Shown here piece after piece: positions 2,747 through 58,411 of a stretch of DNA of 64,000 nucleotides. This DNA comes from Syncephalis fuscata (Eukaryota > Zoopagomycota > Zoopagomycetes > Zoopagales > Piptocephalidaceae). A program made the translations under genes and the position numbers. Under the pieces are notes generated by a model. The model worked only from the letters and a program-made list of their open reading frames with translations, had not been told where the DNA came from and did not search any database. The DNA lies in assembly GCA_025786725.1 (NCBI GenBank), contig JAHLTZ010000012.1, positions 620,001 through 684,000 of the forward strand. The letters are read 5' to 3'. Positions within the stretch are counted from its first letter, which is position 1. Every line of letters starts with the position of its first letter.

Positions 2747-4329
2747 ATGAGCGACGTTAAATCGTTCAACTATTGTCGGTCAGTAAAGCGAGCTTTGATG
2801 ACGTGTAGCCATCATTTAACTATGTTATCCGTTTATAGTTGGTCGCTGAGCACTGCTAATTGCAACGATACGTCCTACTATGTGACGGTATACGCATTCT
2901 CGACAGTAATAGCCGGTCTTACCATTATTGTTGGCACAAGTCTATTGATGTGCAGACGCTGTGGCTGTTGCTGCTGTTGCTGTATCATTTGGCCGCACAT
3001 CCGCAAACCGGATTTAATTATTCATTCGCCGCTAGACCAGTTCCTCTTCTGGGTTACCGTGATGGCCATAGGCAAGTTGGCCGTAACCTATAGCACTGGC
3101 TATAATTAACGCGTTTTATTAAATAATACCTATAGGACGACTAACTATAAGCATCATGCTTATCATGAATGCTAATCTTTCTTCCATTTACTATGAAATT
3201 CTTTGGCAATTGCCACTAATTTCCGGTATTAATGCCATGTCTATTTACTGCCTTGATGTGTAAGTATACCGTCGATTCAATGTCTAATTTAGCACCTAAT
3301 TATTATTTTACTGATCAGCATTCAATGTACTCCACAAAGGACGTTTCCTAATTGGGCGCCTACTTCCCAAACCATTCGCGTGATACACCGATGTTTATTT
3401 ATCGTTTTTTATATTGTTATCATGGCACTTGCCATTATTTTTGGCTATTTTCTTGAACATGGCCCCGATACAATGGCCATTATATTCTATTGTACTCTTT
3501 ATTACATTTACGCCATTATTGGCCTCACTTTAATAGCAGCCTATCTAGTTTTTGGCAATCATCTTGTTGCGCTGGCCGCGCGTCAATTAGAGCTTTACGA
3601 AGCTAACAAAAGCTGTGACGATTTGGTTCAAGAAAAAACAATTTTACTGAAGCAATCAATTATACGTGTAAGTAATGAAAATATTGACTGACAGTATATT
3701 AATATATTAATTACCATATTAACTAACTTGTGTATTATATATATATATTAATAGATGCGTATACAAAATGTCGGTGGCATTGCTACCATTGCCATTTGTA
3801 CCACTTGTATATTTATTTGCGCAATAGGTCCTGAACTAATGTCCGAGAATGCTATTTTAAACAAAATCTTTTGCATTATATACAACATTATTCATCCTGC
3901 CTTCTTTTTAACAATCACAGTAAGCCGATAGATTATTATGTAAATTCTGTACTAATTAAATTTTAATATAATCCAATAGCTTGTAACAGCAAAATTGTAA
4001 GCTACAAACAAAAACATTTTATTAACTAATTACTTATACAACATCGATCTTTATCCAGTGAATCCGTGGCAACCATAGAAAATATACGGACATCACAAAA
4101 ACAAACTACAACAAATCGTCACTCGGCTCATACGATCAACGAAGATATCTATTACAAAGAGTTTATCATTTCCATGCCATCCGAACCTATTGCTTTCGAG
4201 ATGGATCCAGCAGATTTATTCACTACGTATGAGCAGCGTCATACTATGGCATCCAGCAGTCATCCTACCAGCGATGTACCTTCACTCAACCACCATGCCC
4301 ATATTACTTTTGAGTCTCCTCGAGCTTAA
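2747..4329 (+). CDS. Putative seven-transmembrane receptor-like protein
   Basis: A multi-exon gene whose pieces give seven hydrophobic spans: one in 2747-3080 (YYVTVYAFSTVIAGL), the next ending near 3080 (FLFWVTVMAIG), one in the exon ending at 3259, two in 3319-3668, and two in 3755-3918. A tiny 17-nt exon at about 3980-3996 joins the last span to the cytoplasmic tail at 4057-4329. Right after the first span comes a cysteine run (CRRCG followed by six Cys), a likely palmitoylated membrane border. A charged loop (ELYEANKSCDDLVQEK) lies between spans five and six, where G-protein receptors usually have their coupling loop. The tail is polar and ends in SPRA. The layout fits a fungal G-protein-coupled receptor, but I cannot name a family. 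The second intron boundary (3080-3150) is uncertain, and an upstream exon is possible. Confidence 0.6.
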
Positions 4330-24840: not shown

Positions 24841-27660
<2,820 letters not shown>

Positions 27661-32337: not shown

Positions 32338-35246
32338 TTATGGAGCTGTGTTTGTAAATAAAGATATTATATGTTGTATAATTAATGTATAAGCTATCAA
32401 TATAAAATGTTACTTACCGCCTATTATTATTAAGTTTTTAATACACATGGTGCATAATATGTGATTAATAAGCAATCAATTATATACAATCTGACTTACA
32501 ATACTCTAATGTTGATTTGTTGATGGATACAGTGCATGGTATATAATTAGTACATATTCAGTTAATATACAATACAAATGGGGACGTTGCTAGCCAGTAG
32601 GTAAGGCAGCGTTTCCCGAGCTGAAGGTTCCGGATTTAAACTGAGGTTTAAATCAGTTCTTAAGTGGAAAATCCCCTCCCAGCTTTCACTAGTTAACAAA
32701 TTGCAAACCAGAACCCAATAAGTAGGTCCGGAAACAAGACCTTGGCCAGAATAGCCGAGGAAAAGTCAATTGACACCAACTTCAAGAGAATAGTGCTGTG
32801 TAGCGCCATTTAAAAGAAGATGGTCCGCGTGGAATCTACATGGACCAGATTTGCGCAAAAACGTGGCAGTCCACCCGTTAAAAGTTTGGAAAAGTCCAAA
32901 TATAGTGGGAAGCAGCGCAAATTCTTTAATTATGTGCAGCAGGGGTTCACAAGCTCTTCAAAATAAAAAATAAAATACAATATCACTTACTGCCTATTAA
33001 TATTAAGTTATTGGTACACAATACATGATATGTAGTCAGTGTATATTCAGTTAATACATAATGCTACTTACTGCCTATTAATATTGAGTAATCAGTACAG
33101 TCGGTAAATAATATAAATAATATATAATCAGCTAATATACAATAAAACTTACAAACTATCAATATTAAACAATTGGTACAATTAGTAAATAGCATAGTTA
33201 ATATATAGTCAATTAATATACAATACAACTTACGGCCTATCAATATTAAACAATTAGTACAATAGTAAATAGTATAGTTAATGTATAGTTAATAATATAC
33301 AATACCACTTACCGACTATTAATATTAAACAAGTGGTACAATTAGTAAATAATATAGTTAATATAATTAATCAATATACAATACAACTTACCGCCTATTA
33401 ATATTAAATAATTGGTACAATTAGTAAATAGCATAGTTAATATATAGTCAGTGATATACAATAATACTTACAGACTATCAATATCAAACAATTGGTACAA
33501 TTAGTAAATAGTATAATTATTATATAGTTAGTTAATATATAATAATACTTACATACTATTATATTAAATAATTGGTGCAATTAGTAAATAGTATAATTAA
33601 TGTATAATCAGCTGATGTACAATAATACTTACATGCTATTATATTAAATAATCAGTATAATTAGTAAATATCATGATTAATGTATAGCTAGTTAACATAA
33701 AATATCACTTACTTCCTATTGATATAAAATAATCGGTACCATCAGTAAATAACATAATTAATATATAGTAAGTTGGTATACAATACCACTTACCATCTAT
33801 TAATATTGAATAATCAATATAGTTAGTAAATATTATAGTTAATATATAGTCAATTAATATGCAATGCTACTTACAAACTATTAATATTAAACAATCAGTA
33901 CAATCAGTAAATAGCATAGTTAATATACGGTATCACTTACCTTCTATTAATATTAAATAATTGGTACAATCAGTAAATACCATGATTAATGTATAGTCAG
34001 TTCATATACAATATCACTTACTAGCTATTAATAGTAAATAATTGTTATAGTTAATAAATAGTATAGTTAATGTATAGTCAGCTAATATATACTACCACTT
34101 ACGACCTATTAATATTAAGTTATTGATACAATCAATAAATAGCATGTTAATGTATAGTCAGTTAATATACAATATTACTTACATCCTATTAATATTAAAT
34201 CATTAATGCACATAGTACATGAATATAATTAGTGAGTGATTAGTTTATATACAATACAACCTACTCTCTATTATATTAAGTTATTGACACACACAATATA
34301 TAATATATAATTAGTGCATAATCAAGTAATATACAATACTACTTACTTCCTATTATAGTGAATTTTGATACACACAGCGCATGACATATAATTAATGCAT
34401 AATTAGTCATATACAATGATACTTACTGCCTATTAATATTAAGTTATTCATACACATAGTGCATAATATATAATTAGCCAATGCTCACTTAATATGCAAC
34501 ATAACTTACATTCTATTAGTATTAAGTTATATACCAGTGCATAGTATGAAATTAGCACATAATTGGTTAATATATAATACAACTTACCCTCTATGTCATT
34601 AAGTTATTGATATACATAATACATGGTAGCTAGTTAATGTATAAATCATCAGTATACAACATCACTTACCGCCTATTATTATTAAGTTTTAATACACATA
34701 GTGCATAGCATGCAATTAGTAAGTAATCAGTTATATACAATTCAACTTACATTTAGCTAATATTAAGTTATTGATAAATACAGTATATGGTACATAATTA
34801 GTATATGTTCTATTAATATGTAATACGACCTACCAGCTATTCATATTAAGTTATTGATCAACACAGTACATAAAATTTAATTGGTGTATAGTCAATTAAT
34901 GCACAGTAAAACTTACGATCTATTATATTAAATAATCGGTGTCATCAGTAAACAGCATAGTTAATATATAGTCAGTTAATATACAATACCACTTACCCCC
35001 TATTAACATTAGATAATTGGTATAATTAATAAATGGCATGTGATTAGTGTAGTCAAGTAATACGCAACGCAACTTACTGGCTATTATAATTATTAGTTAA
35101 AAATAGGGTTAATAAACAAATGCATGGTATATTTATTAATATTACAACATACAACGACGAACTAAGACTGGTTTAGCATCCACCATGGCTGTACTGGCCA
35201 CAAGCGCAACGACAATGGTGCAAACGATGGCAATGGAAAACTTCAT
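32338..35246 (-). CDS. Micro-exon gene A: secreted six-cysteine peptide, one codon per exon
   Basis: Exon 1 (35246-35153, 94 nt) encodes a signal peptide (MKFSIAIVCTIVVALVA, cleavage likely near VDA) and a dibasic site (VLVRR), ending in phase 1 at a GTATGT donor. Then come 29 micro-exons, nearly all 3 nt, each between an AG acceptor and a GTAAGT-type donor. The last exon starts at 32345. Joined in phase 1 they stay open and stop at TAA, 32340-32338. The product is about 64 residues. After a Kex2-like cut the mature part is about 33 residues with six Cys, spaced C-x2-C-x3-C-x8-C-x3-C-x3-C (first block CEECRKRC). All six Cys codons are split T|GC or T|GT across introns. Splicing exon 1 straight to the last exon would leave only the signal peptide, the dibasic tail and two residues, which argues that the array is coding. 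Function unknown; defensin-like, signalling or effector peptide possible. Confidence 0.75.
32418..35080 (-). repeat. 81-bp minisatellite A; each monomer is intron plus 3-nt exon
   Basis: On the minus strand each monomer runs GTAAGT, an AT-rich body and a TTAATATTAATAG-like end, followed by the 3-nt exon. Left coordinates of the micro-exons (3 nt unless noted): 32418, 32500 (6 nt, or 4 with the second AG), 32991, 33072, 33153, 33234, 33313, 33392, 33472, 33553, 33633, 33713, 33794, 33875, 33941, 34022, 34103, 34183, 34265, 34347, 34427, 34510, 34588, 34670, 34751 (6 nt), 34834, 34917, 34997, 35078. Spacing is 78-83 bp except for a 66-bp step at 33875-33941 and the SINE-interrupted step. Donor variants: GTAGGT at 34265 and 34834. 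Bodies are alike, while the triplets vary freely. Confidence 0.9.
32575..32974 (+). mobile_element. tRNA-derived SINE-like insertion in an intron of gene A
   Basis: A ~400-bp block, visibly richer in GC than its surroundings, interrupts one array monomer. It is flanked by an 8-bp direct repeat ATACAATA (32567-32574 and 32975-32982), which fits a target-site duplication. Near its 5' end TAGCCAGTAGG resembles a pol III A box, and about 35 nt on GGTTCCGGATTT is an imperfect B box. The 3' end is A-rich (AAAATAAAAAATAAAA). No reading frame of note. The insertion lengthens that intron from about 78 to about 485 nt, but leaves its splice sites untouched. It is absent from unit 2, so it post-dates the duplication or was lost there. 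Confidence 0.7.
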
Positions 35247-35384: not shown

Positions 35385-35393
35385 CTATTTATA
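35385..35393 (-). promoter_or_regulatory. TATA box of micro-exon gene A
   Basis: On the minus strand the sequence reads TATAAATAG, about 140 nt upstream of the ATG at 35246. The surrounding promoter block (35247-35480) is shared with gene B. Confidence 0.55.
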
Positions 35394-37728: not shown

Positions 37729-40249
37729 TTATTCTGTATTTACAAATAAAGATATTACACATGGTTAATGTATAAGTCATCAATACACAATTCAACTTAC
37801 GGCCTATTAATATCAAGTTGTTGATACACATGGTACATAGCATGTGATTAGTGAGTAACCAATTAATATACAATACAACTTACATCCTCTAATGTTGATT
37901 TGTTAATGGATACAGCACATGATATATCATTAGAGCATAGCCAATTAATATACAACATAACTTACTGCCTATTAATATTAAGTTGTTAGCATACACAGTA
38001 AATAGCATATGATTAGCGCATAATTAAGTAATATATAATATCACATACAATCTATTAATAAGGTTGTTGATGCATACAGTGCATAATATATAATTAGCGT
38101 ATAATCAATTAATACACGATATTACTTACGGGCTATTATATTAAATGGTTAATATAGCAGTAAATGGTATAGTTAATGTATAGTTAGTTAATATGCAATA
38201 GCACTTACTTGCTATTAATATTAAATAGTTGGTACAATCAGCAAATAGCATAATTAATGTATAGTCAATTAATATAATACCACTTACAGACTATTAATAT
38301 TAAATATTGGTACAATTAGTAAATATTATGTGATTAGCGCATGTCAGTTGACATATAATACAACTTACAGCCTGTTAATATTAGGTTGTCGATGTCACAG
38401 TAAATAGTATGTGATTAGCGTATAGTTAATAATATATATTATCACATACAACCTATCAATAGGGTTGTTGATGCATACAATGCATAATATATAATTAGCG
38501 TATAATCAATTAATACACAATACAACTTACTTGCTATTAAATATTAAATAATTGGTACAATCAGTAAATAACATAATTAATATATAGTCAATTAATATAC
38601 ACTACAACTTACACCCTATTGATATGAAATAATTGGTATAATTAAGTAAATATTATAGTTAATGCATAGTCAATCAATATACAATATCACTTACTATCTA
38701 TTGATATTAAACAATTGGTATAATTATTAAAAGCATAATTAATGCATATTCAATTAATATACACTAAAACTTACCAACTGTCGATATTAAATAATCGGTA
38801 CGATCAGTAAATAGCATAGTTAATATATAATCAGTTAATATACAATACAACTTACAGGCTATTAATATTAAATAGTTTTTACAATCAGCAAATATCAGTT
38901 AGCGTATAGTCAAGAAACATACAATATCACTTACGTTCTATTGATATTAAACAATTGTACAATCAGCAAATAGCATAGTTAAGGCATAGTTGATTAATAT
39001 ACAATACCACTTACTCCCTATTAGTATTAAATAATCAGTGCAATCAGTAAATGTCATGATTAATAGGTAGTTAATTAATATGCAATATCACTTACTATCT
39101 ATTAGTATTAAATAATTGGTACAATTAGTAAATAGCATAGTTAATGTATAGCCAGCTAATATAAAATATTACTCACACTCTATTAATATTAAATAATTAG
39201 TACAATTAGTAAATAGTATAGTTAATGTATATTCATTTAATATACAATATCACTTACCATCTATTGATATTTAACAATCAGTTCAATCAGTGCAATCAAT
39301 GCAATCAGTAAATAGCATAATGCATAGTCAATTAATACATAACATCACTTACCACCTATTGTAGTAAATTATTGATGCATACAATACACAACACGTAATT
39401 AGTATAGTCAGTTAATACACGATATAACTTACACACTAGTGAGTTGTTGATACAATACATGAATATAATTAGTGCATAGTCAGTTAATATACAACATAAC
39501 TTACTTCCTATGGCATTCAGTTATTAATAAACACAGTACGCGGCACATAATTAGTGCATAATCAAGTAATATACAATACTACTTACTTCCTATTATATTA
39601 AATTTTTAACGCACAGCGCATGACATATAATTAATGCATAATTAGTCAATATACAATGATACTTACTGCCTATTAATATTAAGTTATTCATACACATAGT
39701 GCATATATATAATTAGCCAATGCTCACTTAATATGCAACATAACTTACATGCTATTAATATTAAGTTGTTGATATACACGGTGCATGGTATATAATTAGC
39801 GCATAATCGGCTAATATACAATGTACTTACCCCCTATTATATTAAGTTATTGATATAAACAATACATGGTATAGAATTAATTTATAATTTATCAATATAC
39901 AAATCACTTACTGCCTATTAATATTAAGTTGTTGATACACATAGTGCATAGCATGCAATTAGTAATAATCAGTTATATACAATTCAACTTACATAGATCT
40001 AATATTAAGTTATTGATAAATACAGTATATGGTACATAATTAGTGAGTAGTTGGTTAATATGCAATACCACTTACCATCTATTATAATCATCATTTATAA
40101 ATACTGTTAGTAAGCATAATGCCATAATATATTTATTAATATTGCAACATACCACCACGGCGAACTAAGGCTGGATTAGCATCCACCATGGTTGTGACGG
40201 CCACAAGCGCAACGACAATGGTGCAAACGACGGCAATGGAAAGCTTCAT
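37729..40249 (-). CDS. Micro-exon gene B: paralogue of gene A, one codon per exon
   Basis: Exon 1 (40249-40153, 97 nt) encodes MKLSIAVVCTIVVALVAV, a cleavage region ending DANP and the dibasic ALVRR, again ending in phase 1 at GTATGT. 29 micro-exons follow. The last exon starts at 37733 and the TAA is at 37731-37729. The joined frame is open, about 63 residues. The mature part after the dibasic site is about 32 residues with six Cys, spaced C-x2-C-x3-C-x11-C-x4-C-x1-C (first block CRACRRMC). The Cys-x3-Cys and Cys-x-Cys pair recalls the CS-alpha-beta (defensin) framework, though the first spacing is shorter than usual. The second-last micro-exon depends on which AG of CATTAGAG is used: 3 nt keeps the frame given here, 5 nt would read on into the last exon. 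Relation to gene A is certain; function is unknown. Confidence 0.75.
37801..40078 (-). repeat. 81-bp minisatellite B; each monomer is intron plus 3-nt exon
   Basis: Same design as array A. Left coordinates of the micro-exons (3 nt unless noted): 37801, 37884 (3 nt, or 5 with the first AG), 37966, 38049, 38130, 38209, 38288, 38369, 38450, 38531, 38613, 38695, 38775, 38856, 38935, 39015, 39096, 39177, 39258, 39353, 39433, 39505, 39587, 39667, 39749, 39831, 39912, 39993 (6 nt), 40076. Spacing is 79-83 bp, except 95 at 39258-39353 (a small CAATCAGTG-type expansion) and 72 at 39433-39505. Donor variants: GTATGT at 38049 and 38450, GTGAGT at 39177. The 6-nt exon at 39993 is the counterpart of that at 34751 in array A. 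Confidence 0.9.

Positions 40250-47570: not shown

Positions 47571-58411
<10,841 letters not shown>

Follow-up and report, generated by a model that had tools for sequence, protein, structure and literature searches.

One-codon exon arrays predicted to encode a family of secreted cysteine-rich peptides in the fungus Syncephalis fuscata

Architecture of gene A

Gene A lies on the minus strand of a 64,000-nucleotide stretch of the Syncephalis fuscata genome (contig JAHLTZ010000012.1, positions 620,001 to 684,000; this whole stretch is called the window, and its own numbering is used below). Its coding sequence (35246..32338) consists of an exon 1, 29 micro-exons and a last exon, separated by 30 introns. 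Genome comparison makes it very probable that gene A is functional and belongs to a large family of fungal genes whose secreted, cysteine-rich peptides are made by constitutive splicing of one-codon exons. Comparative evidence shows that, for the predicted transcripts, the frame, exon order and full inclusion of the exons are under selection, and that the joined products resemble intronless paralogues.

Exon 1 (94 nt, 35153..35246) codes for a signal peptide followed by a short pro-region that ends in LVRR, and supplies one further base (MKFSIAIVCTIVVALVASTAMVDAKPVLVRR, then T). The micro-exons span 35080 to 32418, and 27 of them are 3 nt and two are 6 nt long. In order of transcription, all on the minus strand, they are 1, CCA (35078..35080); 2, GGG (34997..34999); 3, ATC (34917..34919); 4, CTG (34834..34836); 5, CTAAAT, of 6 nt (34751..34756); 6, GCG (34670..34672); 7, AGG (34588..34590); 8, AAT (34510..34512); 9, GCA (34427..34429); 10, GAA (34347..34349); 11, AGA (34265..34267); 12, GAT (34183..34185); 13, GTC (34103..34105); 14, CTA (34022..34024); 15, AAG (33941..33943); 16, TTT (33875..33877); 17, ATG (33794..33796); 18, GAA (33713..33715); 19, CAT (33633..33635); 20, TAT (33553..33555); 21, TCT (33472..33474); 22, GCG (33392..33394); 23, TCG (33313..33315); 24, GCC (33234..33236); 25, TTT (33153..33155); 26, GCA (33072..33074); 27, GCA (32991..32993); 28, AGTATT, of 6 nt (32500..32505); and 29, GCG (32418..32420). 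The last exon, which begins at 32345, contributes CT CCA TAA (32338..32345) to the coding sequence, and its stop codon TAA, 8 nt in, ends at 32338. The coding sequence totals 195 nt, of which 101 nt (about half) lie outside exon 1, and the predicted spliced product is MKFSIAIVCTIVVALVASTAMVDAKPVLVRR-SRDPAKCEECRKRCPKVYGTLFCVGLCSKYCAP.

An earlier note on this DNA had described an array of 29 micro-exons and 30 introns that reaches a stop codon 8 nt into the final exon, and we re-found all of it in the same places. The steady period of ~81 bp that it reported also holds, apart from one 63-nt intron and one of 485 nt (32506..32990, minus strand), which carries an insert of about 400 bp resembling a short interspersed nuclear element (SINE). 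Its count of 27 exons of 3 nt and one of 6 nt stands; the exon that it left as an ambiguous 4 or 6 nt (micro-exon 5) is best read as 6 nt, because many relatives have 6-nt exons early in the array that read xxxAAT or xxxGAT. Two amendments concern gene A itself. It belongs to a large family and is no isolated curiosity, and its codons are split by the introns, so that exons do not hold one whole codon each: all introns are phase 1, and each residue is encoded by base 3 of one exon and bases 1-2 of the next.

Reading frame and exon order

Related loci were located through the conserved exon-1 motif, which gave 31 stretches (the window and loci L009-L038). Gene models were built from splice-site scores and priors on exon and intron length, with codon and stop information unused; splice-site scoring was loosened to admit weak and 6-nt exons, with GCAAGT donors then allowed, and translations were visible meanwhile. 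Automatic models with at least 20 micro-exons were obtained for 25 stretches, L012 and L015 were modelled with a hand-set exon-1 donor, and L029 and L035 are intronless. Array genes carry 21-42 micro-exons. Exon 1 is alike across the 25 models, its signal peptide being judged by eye. The 19 main models, to which the counts below refer unless another sample is given, are these 25 without two near copies (L016, L021) and four models with odd-length exons (L010, L020, L026, L032).

The main models hold 590 micro-exons, and the 613 codons that form when consecutive exons are joined in phase 1 include no stop and 106 cysteine codons. When exon order was shuffled within genes (5,000 shuffles), stops averaged 35.9 (minimum 21) and cysteine codons 51.2 (maximum 69). 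Reading in phase 0, in which each triplet is a codon, gives 6 stops and 3 cysteines; phase 2 gives 56 and 17. Nearly every residue needs bases from both sides of a ~78-nt intron, and thus only joined transcripts explain the data well. Retention of an intron would bring in an in-frame stop in 485 of the 590 cases.

Within the models, 567 of the 590 micro-exons are 3 nt long, under a length prior that favours 3- and 6-nt exons. A test of exon length free of this prior is provided by pattern counts over the 28.95 Mb of genome searched. The pattern TATTAATAG-NNN-GTAAGT, with at most one mismatch, occurs at 3,116 sites against 8 for the reversed pattern, which excludes chance genome-wide. With a 4-nt exon in the same pattern, the counts are 31 and 18.

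The predicted peptides are rich in cysteine, with 6 residues in 14 of the spliced models, 4 in three, 7 in one and 3 in one whose model ends early, so that the number is even in 17 of 19. Over 26 chosen mature peptides, the consensus is CxxCxxxC..CxxxCxxxC. The Arg-Arg ahead of the mature peptide suggests cleavage, probably of the Kex2 type. Two CxxxC spacings are present, where the alpha-hairpinin fold would need two CxxxC helices joined by two disulfides; the sole match to a solved structure is a vicilin-like protein at an E-value of 0.45, which is not significant. No Pfam family was identified for two family proteins, and no NCBIfam family for the 26 mature peptides. A protein search with the gene A spliced protein returned no candidate sharing enough words, and a search with the neighbouring DUF3533 protein matched nothing but the copy in the window among 8,000 candidates scored. 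As both searches were without a foreign match, relatives in other species could not be found by this route. The fungal nature of the genome is supported by the DUF3533 protein, by the acetylglutamate kinase with its ARG5,6 matches and by 21 chitin synthase matches, among which the high scores over the full length count most, as 4 bacteria in the control genomes gave matches as well. A search for the flagellar protein IFT46 had no hit here or in the controls and carries no weight.

Intronless paralogues

Two loci fetched through exon 1, L029 and L035, carry the mature peptide as an uninterrupted frame. Twenty further loci were chosen from the protein matches of L035 for long open matches, and in 21 of these 22 loci (not L058) there is a short open frame that encodes a similar signal peptide and 4 or more cysteines, this cysteine number being part of the filter that picked intronless frames. 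Each of the 21 matches some array gene on both sides of the frame. The upstream match extends over 150-421 bp in 15 and over just 52-110 bp in six, and the 3' untranslated region (UTR) of array genes is matched by 17 of the 21 (local score of at least 50).

The mature peptides of these 21 loci resemble the ordered spliced products of the arrays. Of 27 spliced array peptides, nine score at least 25 bits with an intronless peptide, and these nine include two pairs of near copies. Among the controls, that score is reached once in 1,080 shuffles of exon order, once in 1,080 shuffles of residues and by none of the 27 in either other phase, with a best control score of 25.4. Gene A matches L050 at 32.3 bits (RDPAK-CEECRKRC / KDPAKLCDKCIDKC), and L036, a gene of 42 exons, matches L054 at 41.6 bits, both ending in CTYSECMEK.

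We suggest that the intronless paralogues probably arose when a family locus received a copy of spliced mRNA. A serious rival runs the other way, with the arrays derived from an intronless peptide gene that gained an intron at every codon; we regard this as unlikely. It can appeal to the upstream sequence shared over 150-421 bp by 15 of the 21 intronless copies and to the downstream sequence shared by all of them, since such flanks imply that these copies are not simple retroposed ones. A tree of 48 rows (200 bp upstream plus exon 1) requires at least 3 changes between array and intronless states on well-supported branches, and 8 by parsimony, and leaves the direction unfixed (24 of its 45 inner branches are weak, and the bootstrap has not settled). 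However, the introns are all phase 1, mostly one codon apart and alike as tandem units, features that duplication of units fits better than intron gain.

Selection for full inclusion of the micro-exons

Because the exons are multiples of 3 nt and the internal introns share one phase, any subset of micro-exons stays in frame, and combinatorial splicing, with micro-exons skipped at will, could produce many peptides per gene. The joins make this very unlikely. Joins of exon i to i+1 contain no stop in 590 cases, whereas joins that skip one exon carry stops near the shuffled rate (39 of 571) and those from i+3 to i+8 carry them in 4.9-7.4% of cases. The skipped joins are thus unprotected from stops in the genome sequence. 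Cysteine codons are likewise commonest in consecutive joins (106 of 590, versus 28 to 56 of 457 to 571 longer joins). The presence of stops in skipping joins and their absence from consecutive ones indicate that selection keeps only full, ordered inclusion.

Several points weigh against constitutive splicing of the arrays. Owing to the length prior, the proportion of 3-nt exons in the models is in part built in. Three of the 25 automatic models (L010, L020, L026) include a 2-nt exon, L010 and L032 have one stop each, L032 also has 1- and 20-nt exons, and loci L019 and L027 resisted modelling. Eighteen of the 27 spliced peptides score below 25 bits against the intronless set. We read the six loci as broken copies or failed models. 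At unit 12 of L020, a 2-nt exon shifts the frame, and the cysteine pattern of its close relative L034 is lost downstream; L020 looks like a broken copy by this comparison.

It may also be asked whether the array is skipped as a block or decayed, so that the functional product is exon 1 plus the last exon alone, or the intronless paralogues alone. The broken look of L010, L020, L026 and L032 would agree with this. Such an account is scarcely credible, given that 613 codons from 19 genes contain no stop, that cysteine is in excess and that the ordered spliced products resemble the intronless proteins.

Splice signals and proposed mechanism

Donors in the main models are GTAAGT in 494 of 590 cases and GCAAGT in 11, and acceptors are TAG in 576 of 590. 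The introns have a median length of 78 nt, and only 8 of 590 exceed 120 nt. TACTAAT-like branch-site motifs are common, the best match lying at several distances from the acceptor. The bases of the micro-exons show just a mild composition bias, and we therefore place the splice signals mainly within the introns. An ordinary metabolic gene in the window, ARG5,6 (called from an acetylglutamate kinase best matched by ARG5,6 entries), has introns with the same splice signals by reading, including one GC-AG intron (27545-27603). The array introns share with U2-type introns their GT-AG or GC-AG ends and, by eye, have the donor consensus of this one ordinary gene. The proposal in the earlier note that the peptide is built almost wholly from single-codon exons gains backing from these shared signals and, in the ordered phase-1 reading only, from stop avoidance, cysteine enrichment and the likeness to intronless paralogues. 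Programmed elimination of the intervening units at the DNA level, for which contiguous copies in the same genome might speak, is hardly worth considering beside such spliceosomal ends (GTAAGT, GC-AG variants, TAG), which also occur in the metabolic gene, and the contiguous copies are other loci with sequences of their own.

For constitutive splicing of the arrays we propose the following route. Exon 1 would provide the signal peptide and the short pro-region with its final Arg-Arg, and the mature peptide would be assembled from about 30 successive exons, nearly all one codon long, each lying between a TAG acceptor and a GTAAGT-type donor. The spliceosome would excise the ~78-nt introns and retain every micro-exon in order. 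Since only 3 nt part each acceptor from the donor that follows, the two sites could hardly be occupied at once, and exon definition is hardly possible; introns would thus be recognized by intron definition and removed one by one. Cleavage of the Kex2 type would probably follow the Arg-Arg, and the mature peptide may adopt a disulfide-bonded fold and have a role outside the cell. Stepwise removal was likewise proposed by Guo and Liu for a 1-nt exon (PMC4674806).

Size of the family

Searches of the same genome indicate a large family. Gene A DNA as query gave at least 108 matching pieces (best 40 of 328 candidates), and a 148-bp query spanning exon 1 and some of the 5' UTR had at least 40 matches at 89-100% identity (best 40 of 249 candidates). 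The protein of the intronless paralogue L035 gave at least 150 matches (best 150 of 309 candidates), of which 22 are open to query residue 58 or further, several being near copies of one another; the others mostly stop at, or shortly past, the signal-peptide exon. The narrow TATTAATAG-NNN-GTAAGT pattern fits 401 of the 590 modelled micro-exons, from which we derive a rough total of 4,600 micro-exons in about 150 genes, an estimate that probably contains haplotype duplicates and broken copies. The family probably exceeds 100 genes.

Similar array genes also occur as pairs in opposite orientation, tens of kb apart on one contig (C1, at 476k and 533k; C2, at 521k and 539k). This arrangement suggests inverted duplications or assembly fold-backs. 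The introns of the C1 pair, L010 and L038, differ by 12%.

Evolution of the arrays

In four gene pairs compared, the end units of the array mostly keep position-specific identity. The middle units of the L017/L020/L025/L034 group are alike and vary in number, and there is a difference of three units between L014 and L016. Array length thus seems to change by whole intron-plus-codon units, through duplication and loss, and such a step would change the peptide by one residue without a frameshift.

Among unit pairs with similar flanks, exons are 4.6 to 7.5 times more diverged than introns; where flanks are identical, exons are identical too in 35 of 36 pairs. The middle units are so alike that their homology is unsure. 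With clear unit orthology, the ratio of exon to intron divergence is 1.8 to 10.5 when all intron positions are used and 0.6 to 2.6 for the fastest quarter. These ratios suggest positive selection on the codons. Stronger claims, of proven positive selection or of hypermutation, were dropped because little or no excess is left when the fastest intron positions serve as the reference. In one comparison (unit 29 of L020 and unit 25 of L034), the 120 intron bases around the exon are without difference, and the codons are GCA and ACC, with two of three bases differing.

As each codon stands alone between similar introns and the splice signals are intronic, single codons could be duplicated, deleted, swapped or mutated without harm to frame or splicing. 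The arrays may therefore act as a device for evolution at the level of codons, one that yields new cysteine-rich peptides a residue at a time, periodically fixed as intronless copies. We put this forward tentatively, as a possibility that we think somewhat less likely to be right than wrong.

The SINE-like element of about 400 bp is found antisense in one intron of several array genes, at varying array positions (window 32506-32990, L010, L018, L021, L022, L023, L025 and, in two copies, L028). By eye it has an A-rich tail and a tRNA-like start, and the large introns are about 80-95% alike.

Comparison with known micro-exon systems

Protein variants that arise by exon skipping are typical of the micro-exon genes (MEGs) of schistosomes, and the exons of aphid bicycle genes are about 5-90 bp long, not single codons. 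The fungal arrays share with MEGs a signal peptide in the first exon and coding sequence that lies mostly in very short exons with lengths divisible by three. Schistosome MEGs similarly have many short exons, mostly of 3n length, encode secreted proteins and are hard for annotation programs, according to one article (PMC10526429). The same text gives their exons as 3-81 bp in the abstract and as 6-81 bp, mostly 15 bp, in the body, with 10-20 exons per gene and introns of 0.1-5 kb (PMC10526429). The earlier note had set the array apart from schistosome MEGs as having smaller and more numerous exons, and this contrast broadly holds, except that 3-nt exons as such are not unheard of there, going by that abstract. 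The fungal genes differ in architecture, with one-codon exons, 21-42 per gene, uniform introns with a median of 78 nt in place of long ones, and selection for full inclusion alone.

Aphid bicycle genes likewise form a large, fast-evolving family of putative effectors, whose relatives have multiple microexons and signal peptides (PMC9168663); they belong to an insect and have another structure. We file the fungal arrays as an extreme form of micro-exon gene, outside both animal families.

Other systems show parts of the predicted behaviour. The single-nucleotide exon of Arabidopsis APC11 indicates that exons as small as 1-3 nt can be included by a spliceosome, possibly through intron definition with stepwise removal, and the article gives the smallest exons known before it as 6 nt when constitutive and 3 nt when alternative (PMC4674806). 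That case, unlike the arrays, involves a single tiny exon in a single gene. At the ratchet points of recursive splicing, which are zero-length exons, a donor directly follows an acceptor (PMC8605326); these leave no code behind, whereas each array step would leave 3 nt. Fungal stwintrons are also removed in consecutive reactions, and some propagate in families, but they are nested and share a splice site, while the arrays consist of complete introns parted by coding triplets. In a filamentous fungus, a microexon is described in Trichoderma Xlr2, and its abstract states that functional microexons were earlier undescribed in such fungi (PMC11121469); it is one regulatory microexon, with no array. 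No description of one-codon-exon arrays was found among the matches listed in the open-licence literature, which is weak evidence of absence.

If transcripts confirm the arrays, they would be a limiting case of split genes, with one exon per amino acid. One-codon exons would then occur thousands of times in one small genome, handled by a fungal spliceosome without a usable exon. How splice sites 3 nt apart are dealt with some 30 times running, and how accurately, would become testable, as would the idea that intron arrays help peptides to diversify. Confirmation would further suggest that annotation programs can overlook an entire family of secreted peptides.

Other features of the window

A second array gene, gene B, has the same build as gene A and lies on the minus strand at 37733..40249. 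Its exon 1 occupies 40249..40153, its 29 micro-exons (28 of 3 nt and one of 6 nt) run from 40078 to 37801, and its last exon extends from 37733. Upstream of gene A, a TATAAATA box was identified at 35386..35393 (minus strand), 147 nt from the ATG. Sixteen of the 27 array genes have a TATA-like motif at -200..-120, as do nine of the 21 intronless paralogues. Elsewhere in the window, positions 48145-56885 contain a long BEACH-domain gene that is seemingly split by introns.

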